A stretch of 64,000 bases of DNA from Cyanodermella asteris (Eukaryota; Ascomycota; Lecanoromycetes; Ostropales; Stictidaceae): NCBI GenBank assembly GCA_900618795.1, contig UYJD01000011.1:452751-516750 (forward strand), written 5' to 3'. The position numbers were made by a program, and so were the translations under genes. Below are positions 45,966-64,000 of the stretch, piece by piece; position 1 is the first letter of the stretch, and the number at the start of each line of letters is the position of its first letter. Below the pieces are notes generated by a model that did no database searches, was not told the origin of the DNA, and saw nothing but the letters and a program-made list of their open reading frames with translations.

Positions 45966-48900
45966 CTATGCCTTGCCTTTGACTCGACTCGCGATGTCCT
46001 TCACAACATATATCTGCCCAAACAAGTCCGTAACGCTGACAAAGCACTGTAAGGCCTCAGCAGTCTCCGGCGTCGTCAGAGCCTGTAGCCGCCTTAGCGA
46101 CAACTGCATCTGCTCGCGCTCGAATTCCGCGAGCTGCATCAGATCTGCCTTTGCCTTTGTAGTTCGGTCAATGTCCGAACCTCCTCCTTCGAACGGAACA
46201 GCTCCCCACAGGTGGAATTCTGAGAAGTTGAGACTGTTCAAATTGCCCTCGGCCTGATCTCGTGATAGTGAGCCATAATCATTATACTGGCGACACATGG
46301 TCGCGAGGCTGCGCGCGAACACGTCGCTAAGATAGAGCTGTTGAACTCCGTCGAGGCAATGGCAGCCGGGCGAGCTTATAAGACAACAAAAGAAAGCGAA
46401 AGAGTAAGGGCATGAAGTGTCGTCGGCACCAATACTATGTACCCATTCGCAGTAAGTGTGCGGGCAGGTTTGAAAGATTTCTGGGGTACTTGCATTTATT
46501 AGGGAATTCGGGGCGGTGCTAGCGTCGGCGTAGCTTGCTGGACTTGTCCGGGATCTCTGCTTATATTCTGCTTGGAACATCAAATTAGAGCGCCCATGCG
46601 AAATTTGCGCTCTGAGATAGTTGTATAGCTCTCGAGCAACCCGCGCTTGAGCTTTGAGGGGGTTGTTAAGAATGCGCGGATGCTGCAAGACGTGACCAAT
46701 GAATCTGCGTAGGACTCCCTCGATTTCGCTAATCGATGGCACATTGTGAAGAGGCGACTCGGGAGAAGGGGAGGGGACTGCAGAATTGTACTGAGAAAGT
46801 AGGGCCGAAGGCATTACTGGTCTCGGGCGACTCGTCGACGTCAGGCTGTGATCTGTTGGCAAGACTGCTCCCGTATTTGCGAGACCACATTCGCCACGAA
46901 TAATCGTGTCAACAACCGCTAAGGCGTCGTCAGAGAGCTTGGTGACAATAGACTCGATATACTCATCTGCCTGGTAGTTCAGCATTGACAAGAACATCAT
47001 ATCCCACATCACATCAGTCGGCAGAGGACTCTTGGTTAGAGTATTGATGCTCGTCCAGGTAAATGGGATAAAAACTAGCCAGTCGTCCTTTGTCATAGTC
47101 GCGTCTCTATCGGAGAACACATCGAGTCTCATAGCCTGGAGCCGACGGCCAAAGAATGAAGCCTCAACTAACGCAATGCGGAGGAGAAGCGTAGATGAGT
47201 TCCTGAAGAGCGGGAGCTGTGAAAAGAGACCGATCGTTTTGATCGATCGTGTGCTAGGTATACTGAACATGGCTCCCAACTCTGACTCCCATTGCTCCTG
47301 TTGCCGAGTCGGTGCTTGAAGAGCAGCTAGACAGTACACCTCAGACAATAGAGGCGAGCCGTATGTGACTTTCTCCACCCAAATGTGTTTCGGCTCTCCC
47401 CATAGGCTTTCGTTGTCCAGAAGAAAGAGCCGAGCTCGGCTTATCGCGTCTTCGAGCTCTTGTCGTATCTCTACCGACCAAGGTAAGAAGAGGATCCTTG
47501 CCAGCGTAATAACGCTGTATGCAGTGGTCTCCACAGATCCTCGCCAAGAGCCTCCTGGCTCCTGAGACCGAATCAACCATGTCGAGAGCTGCGTTATGAT
47601 AGTGGGAAGCTGGACCAAGACCAGGTCCTCGTCCAACGACCGCAAGTCTCCCGAGTCCCATCTTCGTAAAAGCTCAACCAATGGCAAAGACAAAGACATA
47701 TACGAGTACTCAATGACGAGGCTCCACTTATCACGCACTGGTCCCTCGTTCCATCGATCGGTAAGGAACTTTGTAGCTTTCAAAATACTCCCTTCCACCG
47801 AGCTTGTTTCAGGTTGAATGAGTAAAGCAGCTAGAGCGTTACAATTGGCGCTAAAGCTTGGATTCTTCTCAAAAGCGTAAGTCCTGAAATGTGTACTGAC
47901 CTCAAAGGCCTCGATCATTGGCTGGATGCTAGCTTCTACACCAAGGTAGCGTAGAGCACAAATCGACTTTGCCGTATCGTCCACATCGGACGCGAAGCCA
48001 GCAGCAAATCCAGTGATGCCTTGATTACGTGCTAGCGACTGAAGGAGCACAGATCTAATAACCTCAATGTGGCTCTCGGACTCAGAAGCAATGTCAAAGC
48101 CGTTAGCAGCGAGCACCGTGACCGCCCAAGAGATCTCGAAGATATGTGTTGGGTAGGCACTGGGGACACCACCTGTGGCGCTTTGGTTGACGACTTTTCG
48201 CAAATAGCTTTCAGCGTCGTCACTCCACTCTGTGCTGTTCATTAAGAAGGCCGCAGTAGAAGAGGGAGATCCCATCATACCAGCCGAAGGCACGAGATAT
48301 TGCTTGACCCTGTCGAAGTCAATCAATCCAACGAGACCTTCGAGGGAATGAAGCACGGTAACTCTCTGACTTCCGTATATGAGCTCCGGTTTGAACATTC
48401 GCATCTTGTCGTCATAGTGCCGGAGAAGAATCTCTTGCTCAGGGAACTCGACTTGATATCCGTAATCCTTGAGATATTCTAGGAGCCGGGGGACGAGGAT
48501 CTCGTAGCCCACGTGGACGCAGCTGGAAACGCGCAGTGTTCGAAGTAGTCGCTGCAAAGCGCCCAGTCCCTTTGAAATAGGTTGGACAAGATGAGCATTC
48601 GATGTGCCTTGTGTTTCCAACCTCGCCGAGTGCTTCAAGAGGGCAAGCGAAGCAGCTGCTGTATTCAAGACACCATCAACTTCCGATGCGTAAATAGGCC
48701 AAGACCCATCTTCTGACTGTGTAGACAGTATGTATTCGAAGCATTCGGGAAACACAAGCTGTTGCTGGCCATCGACGTTTTTGGCTATCATTGCTACCCA
48801 CGCGGAATCGTAAACAGCGGGTGTGAATGTTCCGAAACCTGAATCGCTCTGATATTGCGTTACGATCCGGCTTAGGAGTCGGGTTACCTTGCCCTCAATG

Positions 48901-48968
48901 GCATGCGAGGAGCCTCTTGGGCAATGACGCTTTGTAGCTGTTGGCGAGTGCTCCATGGTGTCGTTCAA
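45966..48968 (-). CDS. bifunctional CPS/KS-type diterpene synthase
   Basis: Intronless, 1000 aa, the length of fungal copalyl diphosphate/kaurene-type synthases. The N-terminal gamma/beta domains carry AVYDSAWVAMI, SEDGSW at 85-90 and the class II protonation motif DVDD at 328-331 (FASDVDDTAKS). The alpha domain has a class I metal motif of DExxE form, DEYIE at 668-672, and an NSE-like motif NDYGSLSRDQAEGNLN beginning at Asn896. Both active sites look intact. I infer that GGPP is first protonated and cyclised to a copalyl-type diphosphate and then ionised to a polycyclic diterpene; the exact product is not predictable. It is divergent from the neighbouring P450 gene. No GGPP synthase is visible in the window. 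Confidence 0.92.
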   Translation of the reverse strand: MNDTMEHSPTATKRHCPRGSSHAIEGKVTRLLSRIVTQYQSDSGFGTFTPAVYDSAWVAMIAKNVDGQQQLVFPECFEYILSTQSEDGSWPIYASEVDGVLNTAAASLALLKHSARLETQGTSNAHLVQPISKGLGALQRLLRTLRVSSCVHVGYEILVPRLLEYLKDYGYQVEFPEQEILLRHYDDKMRMFKPELIYGSQRVTVLHSLEGLVGLIDFDRVKQYLVPSAGMMGSPSSTAAFLMNSTEWSDDAESYLRKVVNQSATGGVPSAYPTHIFEISWAVTVLAANGFDIASESESHIEVIRSVLLQSLARNQGITGFAAGFASDVDDTAKSICALRYLGVEASIQPMIEAFEVSTHFRTYAFEKNPSFSANCNALAALLIQPETSSVEGSILKATKFLTDRWNEGPVRDKWSLVIEYSYMSLSLPLVELLRRWDSGDLRSLDEDLVLVQLPTIITQLSTWLIRSQEPGGSWRGSVETTAYSVITLARILFLPWSVEIRQELEDAISRARLFLLDNESLWGEPKHIWVEKVTYGSPLLSEVYCLAALQAPTRQQEQWESELGAMFSIPSTRSIKTIGLFSQLPLFRNSSTLLLRIALVEASFFGRRLQAMRLDVFSDRDATMTKDDWLVFIPFTWTSINTLTKSPLPTDVMWDMMFLSMLNYQADEYIESIVTKLSDDALAVVDTIIRGECGLANTGAVLPTDHSLTSTSRPRPVMPSALLSQYNSAVPSPSPESPLHNVPSISEIEGVLRRFIGHVLQHPRILNNPLKAQARVARELYNYLRAQISHGRSNLMFQAEYKQRSRTSPASYADASTAPNSLINASTPEIFQTCPHTYCEWVHSIGADDTSCPYSFAFFCCLISSPGCHCLDGVQQLYLSDVFARSLATMCRQYNDYGSLSRDQAEGNLNSLNFSEFHLWGAVPFEGGGSDIDRTTKAKADLMQLAEFEREQMQLSLRRLQALTTPETAEALQCFVSVTDLFGQIYVVKDIASRVKGKA

Positions 48969-49794
48969 CGCTCTGGGTCGAGGCTGACAGGCAGTTACAC
49001 AAGACCCTTAACAGAAAGTAGGACTGCTCAAACCGAGATAAATGAGAGGGAGGGGGGTTTCCTGCTGCAGTCCAAAAAGTGACGGAAAACGGCGTTTCTA
49101 GCGAAGTAGTGAAGGTTTTCCCCAGGGCCAAATTCAGCAGCGAAGATATGAGGTCAAGAACATGTAAATCATCCATCCCGCCTAATGCTTGCCCGCGCTG
49201 TAGCCGAAGCTCAAGAGATGTGCTCAGCATGATAGCGTTCTACTAGCTGATAACGATGCTTTTTCGATGGCGTATGGAGGAGTCCCTTGGTCAGCCTCCA
49301 AGGTAGCTAGCTCAGCGAGGCGAAGCGGCGAAAGCCTGGTATGCTCCGGATACCACGGTAGGGAATTGCAAAATGGAAATGGACCTCTCATGATCACATG
49401 AACTCATTTTCAGCTCTGTTTCAGACAAAGCGGTGCATCTATCAAGAATACCGGCAGACGTGGACGTGTATCGGAAAGTAAAGACGAAAACGTGGGCCGG
49501 ACATTACTAAACTCGCGGCGGAAGCGCGGATTTCGGGCTTGGCACGCCAGCCCAGGAAGGCTTGTAAGCTCCGCCACGACGCACTCTTTGCAACCGAAGG
49601 CATTGGCTGTGAACAGACGACGACCTCACGAGGGAGACTGGCACAATGGTTGAGTCATCAAAGCTCGTCACGGTCCAGACCTTAGGGGGGTCCTCCTGGT
49701 GGACACCGGAAAAGTCTCCGTTTCGAACATTGAATAAGCCTTCTCCCTTCCCGTTGAACGAGCCTTTACTAGGGATTGGTACTACGCATTTACG
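48969..49794. promoter_or_regulatory. shared divergent promoter of diterpene synthase and P450
   Basis: An 826-nt spacer between two outward-reading biosynthetic genes. It is rich in CGG/CCG words (for example around 49265-49370 and 49505-49545) that could serve fungal zinc-cluster regulators, but no single site is certain. The layout suggests co-regulation. Confidence 0.45.
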
Positions 49795-51621
49795 ATGAAT
49801 ACTCTCTTGCTATTGTCGGTGACTCTTTCCTTATGCTACATGGTTCCTCAAGCATGGCAGTTTTGCAGGAATCTGGGCGCAGCGCGTCGGACTAACATCA
49901 GGTATTTTGTCGTGCCTGTCTTCATGCAAGATATCGGCTGGCTCTTCACACAAAGCCTGCTTGTTCCGTTGCTGGATAAGCTTCCTCCGCGATTTACAGA
50001 GCAATGGCTTCCACTTTTGATATTTCACCGTACTTGGATACAGAGCTACAATCCGTTTCGGCGCGCTGGCGCTGATACATTCATTGCCGTGTCGCCAAGC
50101 CGTAATGTTATCTGGACCTGCGATCCGGACATCATTACCCAGGTTCTCAGCGATGGGACTTCATTCGACAAACCTCTTGAGGCCTTTCAAGTATTGAACA
50201 TCTTCGGACCGACGATTGCGGGCACAGGCGGAGAACAATGGCAACGCCTCAAGAGGACCATCCAGCCCAGTCTCAACGAGAAAACCCACCGGGCTGTATG
50301 GGATACTTCACTTCACGTGGCGGACGAGATGGTTACTTCATGGGATACCGAGTCTGACGAGGGAAGAGTGCCGCAAATATATCTCCACACTTCGCGGCTA
50401 GCCTTACATGTACTCGTCTCGGTATGCTTTCATTATCACCTACCTTGGATAGGTAAAGCACAATCATACGGGCTCGCACCGTCAGGGCATAAGCTAGCAT
50501 TTGGCGAAGCGTTTCATGGAGTCTTGTCCCGGCTTCGAGAGATTTACCTTTCGCCGCGCTGGCTGCTGGAGCACTCGCCGCTACGAATTCACCGCAAAGC
50601 CAAAGAAGCATATGATGAATGGCTACAATACATGAACGAGATGATTGAGGACAAGAGAGCTACGATGAAGTCTGGCTCACCAGGAAAGGAGGGTAGTATT
50701 TTAGGTACGTTATAAGGCATTCTACCTTCCGGATCTACAACAGTTCTGATGACAACAGAAACGCTCATCGGCGCAAATCGCAAAGCAAATGAGCTTGGTA
50801 GACTCTCCGACGCCGAAATATTGGGCACCATCTTTGTCTTTATCCTAGCAGGACATGAGACAAGTGGTAACACAATGTCTTTCTGTATGCTATTACTCGC
50901 TTGCCGACCAGATATCCAGCGAAAGCTGCAAAAAGAGCTCGATGCAGTCTTCGGTACAACCGATACTGAATGGTCCTACACAGAGCACCTCCCTCGGCTT
51001 CTTAATGGTTACGTCGGCGCTGTTGTGCGCGAGACTCTGCGTCTGTACGGACCCGTACCTTTCCTCCTCCGCGAGACCAAGGGTCATCCTGCAGAGCTCC
51101 GAATGCAAGGCGAAACTGTTGTTATCCCACCGAAGACAACGGTCTTCATCAACGCCACCGCGGCGCAGCGCAATCCGAAGTATTGGGATGAGAGCAAGGC
51201 AGGGCGAGCGAGAGAAACAGCACGCAAGCACGAAATCCGCGAACAGGCACCGTTCCCCATTACCGCATTCGAGCCGGATCGGTGGCTGAAATCTGACTTT
51301 AAACAGACTAGCGGCGCATGGCTGCCCTTCTCCGATGGTCCACGCGTCTGCATTGGCCAGCGCTTTTCTATGGTGGAGATGGTGGCCGTCATAGCACGCG
51401 TCTTCAAAAAACACAGCGTGGAGTTTGATATCGATGACAAGGAGATCAGTGCTTGTAACAGTCAAGAGGAAAAGAGAGAGGTGTGGCAAGCGACAAGGAT
51501 GAGAGCTGAAAATGCACTTTCAGATGGAATCAAGTTTGTCATTACGCTCCGGATGACGGAGCCAGTGAGCCTGCGGTTCTCGACGAGAGGGACCGAGCGA
51601 TTCTTCGACGTTACAGGCTGA
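49795..51621 (+). CDS. cytochrome P450 monooxygenase
   Basis: Two exons, 49795..50704 and 50759..51621 (ttag|gtacgt to caacag), 590 aa. An N-terminal hydrophobic segment (LLLLSVTLSLCYMV) anchors it in the ER. P450 signatures are complete: I-helix AGHETSGNT at about 334-342, ExxR as ETLR at 395-398, the PITAFEPDRW stretch and the heme loop FSDGPRVCIG with Cys501. It is somewhat longer than typical because of an insertion before the heme region (SKAGRARETARKHE). Lying head-to-head with the diterpene synthase, it probably oxidises the diterpene hydrocarbon. Confidence 0.93.
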
Positions 51622-52781
51622 TATAGTGACAACAACATAATTGACTTGATCCATATCGATAACTGAACCTCCACCACCGACAGCTAGAAAACATGCCGAC
51701 TGCCAATCGAGAGCGTCTCATTTCCACGCCATCGCGAAACGGAGTGTCATCTGGTTCAGACGGGAGATGCAACCGACGAGTGCGCAGTACGCGGGCAGGG
51801 TGGATTTGGGCTCGGAGTCGCCGAACGAAGATTTTAGACTAGGACCCGTGCCCTGCTTCTTCCTGAGAGGGTTGAGCTACATGCCCCGTTCGAAGAAGCC
51901 AAAAGAGGTTGCATAAGTGGCGTTTCCGCCGTCGGTGCACTCTCAGCTGAAGGCCCTAGTGCTGACTCGGTTGTTAGCCTACAAGCCGGATGACTTTAGC
52001 AATCAAGCAGCATCAAGTGCTGCCCCCTGTGTTTGCAGCTTTACACGTACTGTATTTTACACGAATGACGTTCTATACCGCTCATAGTTGGGCATGATGC
52101 TGCGTCAGCTCGTGTCCGCTGATCGTCGACGACGTGGCAGAAACTACACCCCTACGAGATATTACAGCGAGCTACTGACGATAACTGTAGTACTATCGCA
52201 GGGATGTTTTTTGCACATCTCCCACTATGCGCTCCCGTATATCAAGTTTGACGCGTTGGCACTTTACCTAAAAGAGAAAGAGAGGTCACCAATCGTCAGA
52301 GACCGACAAACGTGCGGGAGCCAAAACAAGAACAATAACGCCAAGATGCTGAAGAGGGTGTGCAAAGTACTACCCTGCGATACTATAGAGCTGATCACTG
52401 GCACTCGAGCAGGTCTGAGGCGACCTAGGAGGCCCCCTCTAGCTCGCATTCGGGCTTCCACGATAAAGCAATCGAGTGAGCCGATGTGCTTCTTACTGAA
52501 TAGGCGCAGCAGGGACGGGGATGACCACACTTTGTTTCCCGACGGTTGCCTCCACTATTGCTGCGGCTACTGCTACTATTCATATATAGACCTTAAGGGC
52601 TGTGAGTGTTGACTCCGAGGCCTGCGCACCGCTACCAGACTCATCATGGACTTCGTCGGAGGTAACGTCTCCCACTCAGGTCCTGGGTCCCTCGTCCAAC
52701 TCGAAAAGTCTTTCACAGCCACGCGACAGGCCGCCGAGAGAGTAGTATCGAGATGGCCCCTACCTGCCTTACTAGCATCTT
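51622..52781. other. accessory intergenic region left of the gap
   Basis: A 1.16-kb stretch after the P450. An ORF at 52088-52612 and one from 52646 into the gap have no recognised motifs. Around 52570 the sequence is TATA-like (ttcatatatagacc). It may be degenerate repeat DNA, but I cannot assign a family. Confidence 0.35.
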
Positions 52782-52812
52782 GTCACGGACAAAGGAAGGA
52801 CCGATCAGACGT
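52782..52812 (+). repeat. retroelement-end-like repeat truncated by assembly gap
   Basis: Starting with the t at 52781, TGTCACGGACAAAGGAAGGA and the following CCGATCAGACGT match the minus strand of the palindrome at 62977-63046 at 27 of 32 positions. It stops exactly where the run of N begins. It is read as the end of a related transposable element, plus-oriented. Confidence 0.55.
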
Positions 52813-52837
52813 NNNNNNNNNNNNNNNNNNNNNNNNN
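52813..52837. other. assembly gap (25 N)
   Basis: Twenty-five consecutive N. The true length is unknown. Open frames running through it are not trustworthy. Confidence 0.99.
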
Positions 52838-53699
52838 GACTTGACGCCGTCCTTCACTGGTCGCCTACACAGTCAACCACCCCGTGCCCGCGTTACAGAC
52901 TGGCATTACACGCCTTACCTCGTACACTCGGCCCAACATCTGCTGCTCAGTGCTTGTCTGCGAGCGTTCCATATTTGCTATAATGTCGGAGGAAGATTTC
53001 GATCACGAGGAACTGCCAAAGATTTTTGTGGGATGTCGAATTTATGAGTCGTCACGCAGTTGGGATTCCAACAGCCGGAAGCAAGTAGAGTGGATTTGAA
53101 AATCTTCAAATCCGAAGAACCGCAGGCTTCCAAATACCCCTTCGGCACTCCTTCATTCACTTCTATTGTGACTGGTCATTGCTTGACAAACTCACTCTCG
53201 TTCTGCTGGCAGTGACGCATTTGAAGCCTTGTGCACAATGTTGGCTTGTCCTCCCCACGCTGTCGTTCTCGTATACGCAAGTCGAAATCTCTTGCATCAA
53301 AGAACTATAGCTATAGCGCAAAGATACTGCAGTTCCGGTCGAGAGAACTAGAAGTCATTCGCGAATTAGTGTCAGCCATGTTCCCGCTTGACAGAAGGCC
53401 TTCATGGTATCACTGACTCAAGGCGTCCAAGGTTAATCTCTTCTACCTAAAAGACAACGGACTCGGTTGTGCCAGCGCCAGGCGAGAACTGCGACCTCAT
53501 GTCATTTGAGGTCGAATATACGAGCGGCCGCGTGCATATCAATATTTCAAGGTTGCAATGCGGTTGAATGTCGCTTGACCTCGGTGCTTATGAGGCCCAC
53601 GGAGGCCGCGCAGACAGTCCAACCTTATCTTCAATTAGTATATCAGCAGCCCCCTGCCCATCTGGCTCAGATTGACCCCCACACTACCAATCTTTATAC
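52838..53699. other. intergenic region right of the gap
   Basis: About 860 nt with no supported gene. The first part continues short open frames from the gap, and the remainder is unremarkable. Confidence 0.4.
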
Positions 53700-62976: not shown

Positions 62977-63046
62977 GTGTCACGGACAAAAGATACACCG
63001 ATCAGAGTCCCTGACATCTGATCGGTGTATCTTTTGTCCGTGACAC
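62977..63046 (-). repeat. long perfect palindrome at the retroelement 3' end (candidate LTR or its edge)
   Basis: Two 30-nt arms (62977-63006 and 63017-63046) are perfect reverse complements around a 10-nt loop. On the minus strand it begins (G)TGTCACGG and ends CCGTGACA(C), so it has the TG...CA ends of an LTR. Immediately upstream on that strand is a purine-rich tract (TGGAGGGGGAGC) like the polypurine tract that precedes a 3' LTR. Whether this 68-70 nt is the whole LTR or only its start cannot be decided without the other end. Confidence 0.7.
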
Positions 63047-63050
63047 TAGC

Positions 63051-63062
63051 TCCCCCTCCATA
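63051..63062 (-). other. polypurine tract-like sequence
   Basis: On the minus strand TATGGAGGGGGAGCTAG directly precedes the TGTCACGG start of the palindrome. Position and composition match a retrotransposon plus-strand primer. It fixes the orientation of the element as minus. Confidence 0.6.
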
Positions 63063-63169
63063 AGGTCCGCGTCCCGCGACCGTCCCATTTATGGTTGTCC
63101 GTTTCTTGTTTTGATTGCACATAAGTGTCGCCCTGCGTCCACTCTCTTTTGTTCTCTTGTAAGTGCATC

Positions 63170-63820
63170 ATGCCCCGTCCGAGAGTTACCCCCAAATCTA
63201 GGCTGAACGCTGAACAGCGCACCCTTCTTGCTAGCAACATTCTCCGACACGCCGAGCCCATGGCCCCTGCGTGCAAACAGTGTCGTTCGGCTGGTCGAGC
63301 TTCTTCTTGTCAGTGGGACCCTCGGGTTTCTGGTCACTGTTCCAATTGCGTGGAGCGCAACCTGAGTTGCCGCATTTTGGTGACTGAGTCTGATTTCGCT
63401 AAGTTGGAAAAAGAGCGTGAGAAGTTGGAGACTAAGGTCCGTGAGAACGAGGCCTTGTCCCTGCAACTTGAAAAGGAGGAGGCCGCGGCCTTCGCGCGTC
63501 TCCAGCAACAACATCAACAACACATTCAACGTCGTATCGATTCCTTGAATCGTCGGACGACTTTGGAAAAACAGTTGGAAGCGGTGGCCCAGCGTCGTCG
63601 AGCGCTTTTCAACCGCGGTCTTCAGGTGGCAGAGGAATTGGAGCAGCAAATGGCCTCGGAAGAGTCGGAGCAGCAAACGGAGCAGGGAGGGGGGCTGCCG
63701 CAACCCCTCGATGATCTTATCGAGTGGGGGGGCGGTCCCTCCATGCGCGAGCTGCCTGCCGACTGGATCGATGCATTCGGCGATACTCCTCCAATACCTG
63801 CGGCGAGTCCTGAAAACTAG
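63170..63820 (+). CDS. retroelement-borne antisense protein: Cys6 zinc-cluster-like, coiled coil, acidic-aromatic tail
   Basis: 216 aa from the first ATG in frame at 63170. A basic N-terminus (MPRPRVTPKSRL) is followed by six cysteines at 35, 38, 47, 57, 60 and 67, i.e. CX2CX8CX9CX2CX6C. This is close to the fungal Zn2Cys6 pattern (canonical CX2CX6CX5-12CX2CX6-8C), with the first loop two residues longer. Residues about 72-165 are a strongly predicted-looking coiled coil (LEKEREKLETK, LEKQLEAVAQRRR). The C-terminus is acidic with aromatic residues (DDLIEW, LPADWIDAFGD), like a transactivation domain. It lies opposite to and overlaps the last 104 nt of the chromovirus pol frame. I infer a small transcription-factor-like protein; DNA binding is unproven. 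Confidence 0.7.
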   Translation: MPRPRVTPKSRLNAEQRTLLASNILRHAEPMAPACKQCRSAGRASSCQWDPRVSGHCSNCVERNLSCRILVTESDFAKLEKEREKLETKVRENEALSLQLEKEEAAAFARLQQQHQQHIQRRIDSLNRRTTLEKQLEAVAQRRRALFNRGLQVAEELEQQMASEESEQQTEQGGGLPQPLDDLIEWGGGPSMRELPADWIDAFGDTPPIPAASPEN

Positions 63821-64000
63821 ACTCGATTTCCCAAGTATTTTCTGCATGTGAGTATCCTTCCCATTTCACGAGGAACTGTTGCTGTCCTCGGATCGTTCGG
63901 TGGCGAAGAATCTTTTCGACCTCGTATAGTTGGTCGTGGCTGACATCGAGTTCAGGTTCGACTGTCTGCGTTGGTGTTCTGGCGTTCGGTGACGCTTTTT
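63717..64000 (-). mobile_element. Ty3/gypsy chromovirus pol, C-terminal end (integrase tail and chromodomain; partial)
   Basis: The minus-strand frame enters from beyond the window and ends with TAA at 63717-63719. It encodes a chromodomain: LYEVEKILRHRTIRGQQQFLVKWEGY, given here by its key parts LYEVEKIL, FLVKWEGY and ENTWEIES, followed by a basic tail (MHRSSRQAARAW). A chromodomain at the very C-terminus of pol is the hallmark of chromoviral Ty3/gypsy elements, where it steers integration to modified chromatin. The rest of the element lies to the right of the window. No stop interrupts the visible part, so it may be young. Confidence 0.85.

Follow-up and report, generated by a model that had tools for sequence, protein, structure and literature searches.

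The gene brtn of the Boty-like chromoviruses of Botrytis cinerea, reportedly described by Zhao et al. in 2011, is among the closest described systems to the locus considered here. The Boty-like element that holds it has a gag-pol with a CHROMO domain (PMC4227169), brtn is an additional open reading frame (ORF) of BcGypsy1 that is absent from the most recent gene annotation (PMC8365987), and a Monilinia transcript resembles both Boty pol and BRTN (PMC5987419). According to the available parts of these and the following sources, antisense ORFs between pol and the 3′ long terminal repeat (LTR) are found in Grande, RIRE2, Retand and PvRetro13 as well as in Boty (PMC7264820). The antisense product of Grande is found in the nucleus and is encoded by a gene with a promoter of its own (PMC7264820), the TRP28 proteins encoded in antisense by Retand are predicted to bind DNA and have been likened to the antisense genes of human T-cell leukaemia virus (HTLV; PMC11963269), and the functions of such antisense accessory ORFs (aORFs) are given as unknown in reviews (PMC7264820; PMC11963269). 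Here we describe an intact antisense ORF at the 3′ end of a Ty3/gypsy chromovirus of the ascomycete Cyanodermella asteris, located at positions 63170–63820 of a 64,000-nucleotide stretch of contig UYJD01000011.1 (in the following, the window). We suggest, with a probability of about 0.5, that it is an antisense accessory gene (aORF-3R) of this fungal chromovirus and that its product regulates the element by binding DNA.

As in the Boty-like chromoviruses, a fungal gypsy element with a chromodomain in its gag-pol carries an extra antisense gene; this likeness is one of arrangement, the BRTN sequence lying outside the comparison. The plant aORFs (Grande gene23, with its own promoter, RIRE2, Retand TRP28 and PvRetro13) have the same antisense position between pol and the 3′ LTR and some of their products are reported to be nuclear or predicted to bind DNA, but they differ in their protein features and in their hosts and are reported for the majority of copies in their families. 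Thus, the antisense arrangement is already known, also from fungal chromoviruses (PMC7264820; PMC4227169, as far as their available parts go), and the original prediction, which had been made from the DNA letters alone, was mistaken in taking gypsy elements to encode only gag-pol. What is new here is the zinc-cluster-like domain. We found no fungal LTR element described as carrying a zinc-cluster gene in antisense within the literature covered, which consisted mostly of titles and the first parts of abstracts, with subscription journals, including the brtn paper, largely outside; the available parts of PMC3248453, PMC5408684 and PMC10799480 do not mention such a gene either.

Position of the antisense ORF within the element

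The features at the 3′ end of the element are the following (positions of the window):

62978–63045, no strand assigned: palindrome of 68 bp, by LTR comparison a rearranged and truncated 3′ LTR
63046–63059, minus strand: polypurine tract GGAGGGGGAGCTAG immediately ahead of the LTR start, as read from the sequence
63060–63169, plus strand: stretch 5′ of the antisense ORF that includes a pyrimidine-rich run ahead of the ATG, putative site of an own promoter
63170–63820, plus strand: antisense accessory ORF of 216 aa and a stop codon, with basic N-terminal arm, six-cysteine cluster, long helix and acidic tail
63272–63370, plus strand: six-cysteine cluster C-x2-C-x8-C-x9-C-x2-C-x6-C (codons 35–67), Zn2Cys6-like fold in the model
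63386–63679, plus strand: one long predicted helix (codons 73–170), candidate coiled coil, heptad signal not significant
63680–63817, plus strand: acidic tail with aromatic residues (codons 171–216), net charge −8
63717–64000, minus strand: 3′ end of the chromovirus pol with C-terminal chromodomain PF00385 (profile match) and stop codon TAA at 63717–63719

The plus-strand ORF is intact, comprising 216 codons and a TAG stop codon (231 aa from stop to stop), and runs antisense to pol; frame and orientation are as originally claimed. The chromodomain (PF00385, E 1.7e-16) is encoded on the minus strand within the last 93 codons of the pol frame, and the assignment of the element to the Ty3/gypsy chromoviruses rests here on this C-terminal domain. 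The ORF had been placed between the end of the chromodomain and the palindrome. This placement is correct, but the ORF also overlaps the end of pol tail-to-tail by 104 bp, and the last part of the predicted acidic-aromatic tail, which is indeed present, is encoded opposite the C-terminus of pol.

On the other flank, the minus strand reads through the polypurine tract directly into the LTR start TGTCACGGACAAAAGATACACC. The first 20 bases of this LTR start have 49 matches in the genome with at most three mismatches, compared to two for the reversed control; two of the 49 are the two arms of the palindrome in the window itself. In addition, the first 46 bases of the LTR are found identically at two other places (L004 and L005). 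Since the polypurine tract and the LTR start flank the ORF on one side and pol flanks it on the opposite side, and these features share one orientation, the ORF is internal to the element, as had been supposed, and occupies in antisense the position between pol and the 3′ LTR that characterizes an aORF-3R.

The cysteine cluster, the predicted fold and the proposed function

All six cysteines of the protein are found at residues 35, 38, 47, 57, 60, and 67. When six cysteines were placed at random, one of 200,000 placements had a span of at most 33 residues together with both CxxC motifs, a criterion that was formulated post hoc. The single-sequence AlphaFold model of the protein has a mean predicted local distance difference test score (pLDDT) of 74.3, and the helix of residues 73–170 is modeled with ten-residue means of 96–99 over residues 81–160 and of 84 and 74 at its ends. 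A Foldseek search against the PDB returned only two chains at E ≤ 10, both from Leu3 (2er8, E 1.7 and 2.9). With a second aligner, 10 of the 11 rows among the matches listed were Hap1, Put3, Gal4, Leu3, Pho7 or Ppr1, and the root-mean-square deviation was 1.4–1.8 over 36–37 residues for Ppr1 and Leu3. The modeled product weakly resembles a Zn2Cys6 DNA-binding protein in its fold. Four matches in a viral structure library (E 2.8–9.0, probabilities all at most 0.10) were treated as noise.

With Leu3, Gal4, Hap1, Put3 and Ppr1 the protein shares six cysteines with two CxxC motifs and a helix that follows them, and the modeled fold of residues ∼29–71 weakly resembles theirs. It differs from these regulators in that it has eight residues ahead of the third cysteine, a spacing that departs from the consensus of the Zn2Cys6 family, in its Pfam score below the cut-off, in its size of 216 aa and in being encoded by a retroelement.

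The features of the protein might give a hint how it acts, and we infer that it may regulate the LTR of the element or host genes. The plus strand would probably be transcribed either from an own promoter of the ORF or from the 3′ LTR acting in the reverse direction. The product would then probably be a small nuclear protein which binds zinc and DNA through the Zn2Cys6-like cluster and dimerizes through the long helix, and its acidic, aromatic tail could contact the transcription machinery. The likeliest job of such a protein would be to control the transcription of the element's own LTR, as has been proposed for other antisense-encoded retroelement proteins. HBZ of HTLV-1, a bZIP regulator that is made from the 3′ LTR and is not a zinc-cluster protein, belongs to an animal retrovirus. 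It is the nuclear product of an antisense gene (PMC11963269, available part), and we regard this as a functional analogy only and claim no kinship.

The more general idea, that some fungal chromoviruses encode an antisense 3′ transcription factor of the Zn2Cys6 type which acts on their own LTR and might also regulate host genes, is tentative and in our view rather doubtful. If it were true, there would be a fungal counterpart of the HTLV antisense regulator that uses another protein fold, and one of the major transcription-factor classes of fungi would include proteins that come from retroelements; its confirmation would link retroelements to the fungal zinc-cluster regulators. A recognizable candidate DNA-binding domain in any case makes the question of aORF function accessible to assay.

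The same protein could also be an antisense-encoded nucleic-acid-binding protein that participates in cDNA packaging, nuclear import or integration and not in transcription. For aORF products, import of the pre-integration complex into the nucleus or participation in retrotransposition have been put forward as alternatives (PMC7264820, available part), and the basic N-terminus together with the helix would suit a structural nucleic-acid binder. Nevertheless, the resemblance in fold is to sequence-specific fungal regulators and the acidic tail would fit transcription better, and we regard a packaging or import function as unlikely.

The coding strand

The minus strand is also open across the plus-strand ORF. 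It contains a 258-aa frame (63089–63865) with an ATG ORF of 252 aa, and the plus-strand ORF might accordingly have arisen by chance or be the shadow of this sense-strand ORF of the element. The model of the minus-strand ORF reaches a pLDDT of 38.2 with no residue at or above 70, compared to 74.3 for the plus strand, and because the longer minus-strand ORF is modeled at such a low score the plus strand is probably the coding one. In addition, with the codon usage of the host an open opposite frame has a probability of 0.0074 if the plus strand codes and of 0.00099 in the reverse case, a factor of about seven.

Several results weigh against a regulator encoded on the plus strand. The gap in pLDDT is support and not proof, because helical, charged sequences easily obtain high model scores. 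When the 954-bp region is shuffled 1000 times with its dinucleotides preserved, four of the shuffles contain an ATG ORF of at least 216 aa in any of the six frames, and taken alone the length of the ORF is modest evidence as far as chance is concerned. The codon-usage tests were trained on 54 long ORFs assumed to be host genes and 108 segments were compared. When gene and background usage are contrasted, the plus-strand ORF scores above 38 of the 108 gene segments, and when sense and shadow usage are contrasted, above just one of them; by synonymous usage it outscores 46 of the 108 shadow segments and the minus-strand ORF, which scores higher, outscores 68 of 108. Codon usage therefore does not decide between the strands and in its synonymous part slightly favors the minus strand. 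Concerning the protein itself, the Pfam Zn2Cys6 profile gives E 0.25 and 11.9 bits with a cut-off of 21, and a Zn2Cys6 domain is not proven by the sequence alone. The Zn2Cys6-like array of the original prediction has its six-cysteine pattern and weak support from the fold comparisons but remains below the family threshold. Similarly, a long helix is predicted where a coiled coil had been claimed, but its heptad periodicity falls short of significance, the 3.5-residue moment being attained in 492 of 5000 permutations.

The second open strand, the codon usage and the shuffles would all be compatible with a chance or shadow ORF. On the contrary, the poor model of the minus-strand ORF, the sevenfold difference for the opposite frame, and the presence of the cysteine pattern and of the Zn2Cys6-type fold on the plus strand speak against it, and we consider this explanation the least probable of those discussed here. 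Almost as improbable is the possibility that the antisense RNA matters and not a protein, pairing with the genomic RNA to give double strands that enter the silencing pathway. Such a role has been proposed for antisense transcripts of retrotransposons (PMC7264820, available part), but the protein-like features and the quality of the model would then be superfluous.

The palindrome, the LTR family and relatives of the ORF

Taking GCCCGCGTTACA (from L043) as the LTR end, we could locate both ends for seven LTRs in 20 regions. The LTR is 386 bp long in both copies among these seven that are fully unmasked, and an exact 5-bp target-site duplication is present at four of the seven. The palindrome had been regarded as the terminus of the element. 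Read on the minus strand it consists instead of the first 46 bp of the 386-bp LTR fused to the reverse complement of the first 22 bp of the LTR, with arms of 29 bp each and a spacer of 10 bp. The sequence beyond the palindrome is CCATG, and at the other end of the element TCCAG precedes a TGT; if the 5′ LTR begins at this visible TGT, as it can be interpreted, the element apparently lacks a target-site duplication. Because of this apparent absence, and because the LTR and the inverted LTR share the 7-bp sequence TCTGATC, the palindrome is likelier to have formed by fusion of two inverted LTRs through this homology than by self-primed snap-back during reverse transcription. The gene is intact in this copy. 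A complete 3′ LTR is missing, and the copy is therefore probably immobile.

In the protein database no match was found for the whole protein at E ≤ 0.01 (586 candidates) or for residues 5–108 at E ≤ 10 (54 candidates), and these searches, which rely on shared 5-residue words and would miss diverged relatives, gave no match named BRTN or otherwise. As a control, the GH17 gene of the window was scored against 7994 proteins, 2919 of which matched at E ≤ 0.001, the best with 59% identity across 70% of the query; thus, the database includes fungi. Among viral contigs, the 17 pattern matches of the ORF and the 16 of the chromodomain contained no relatives for either. In the unmasked genome the ORF and its chromodomain match only themselves. 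We dropped the claim of a single copy, since this search covered the unmasked genome and long stretches beside other LTRs lie outside it, for example, the 6.4-kb stretch C11:440395–446823, which starts inside another LTR of the family. PF00385 has five matches in the unmasked genome, one of which is the chromodomain of this element; two others lie in what we take to be one CHD-type remodeller, one in a presumed EF3-like ABC protein and one in a further short frame.

These searches also bear on the possibility that a fragment of a host regulator was transduced by this one element, is no trait of its family, and is now decaying. That a second copy of the ORF was not seen in the unmasked genome and that most of the 3′ LTR has been lost from this copy would be consistent with such an origin. 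However, the unmasked genome holds no host paralogue of the ORF at E ≤ 1 (three candidates scored), the frame is intact with a tail that overlaps pol, and transduced genes usually lie in sense (PMC7264820, available part). We therefore regard a transduced fragment as quite improbable and prefer an accessory gene of the chromovirus.

Several other LTRs of the family are shortened or rearranged. In the window a second LTR (52781–52897) is cut down to 117 bp, of which 25 bp are masked, and its flanks CATCT and GACTG are without an exact target-site duplication. The solo LTRs L035, L037, and L038 (117, 260, and 233 bp) have internal deletions of differing size but retain their two ends as well as an exact target-site duplication. 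At L043:1123–3414 a stretch of 2261 bp lies between outward-pointing LTR ends (TGTAACGCGGGCAC ... GTGCCCGCGTTACA), which are inverted and not direct and represent another rearranged arrangement. At L008:1501–2300 an unmasked LTR of 386 bp from this family lies near what appeared by eye to be an intron-containing tRNA gene; ARAGORN with the bacterial code gave none there and the tRNA gene was not confirmed.

Past the end of the window (L002:5964–10000) the element lies beside or in a gene starting with LPHELLDLIDGF, which we take to be an F-box-like start. Two further minus-strand frames in this region look alike and possibly form a small tandem family. Within the window, positions 45966–51621 comprise a long frame on the minus strand that contains a DVDDTAKS motif, and P450-like frames at 49795–51621. 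The motif is that of class II diterpene cyclases, and this region is possibly a diterpene gene cluster.
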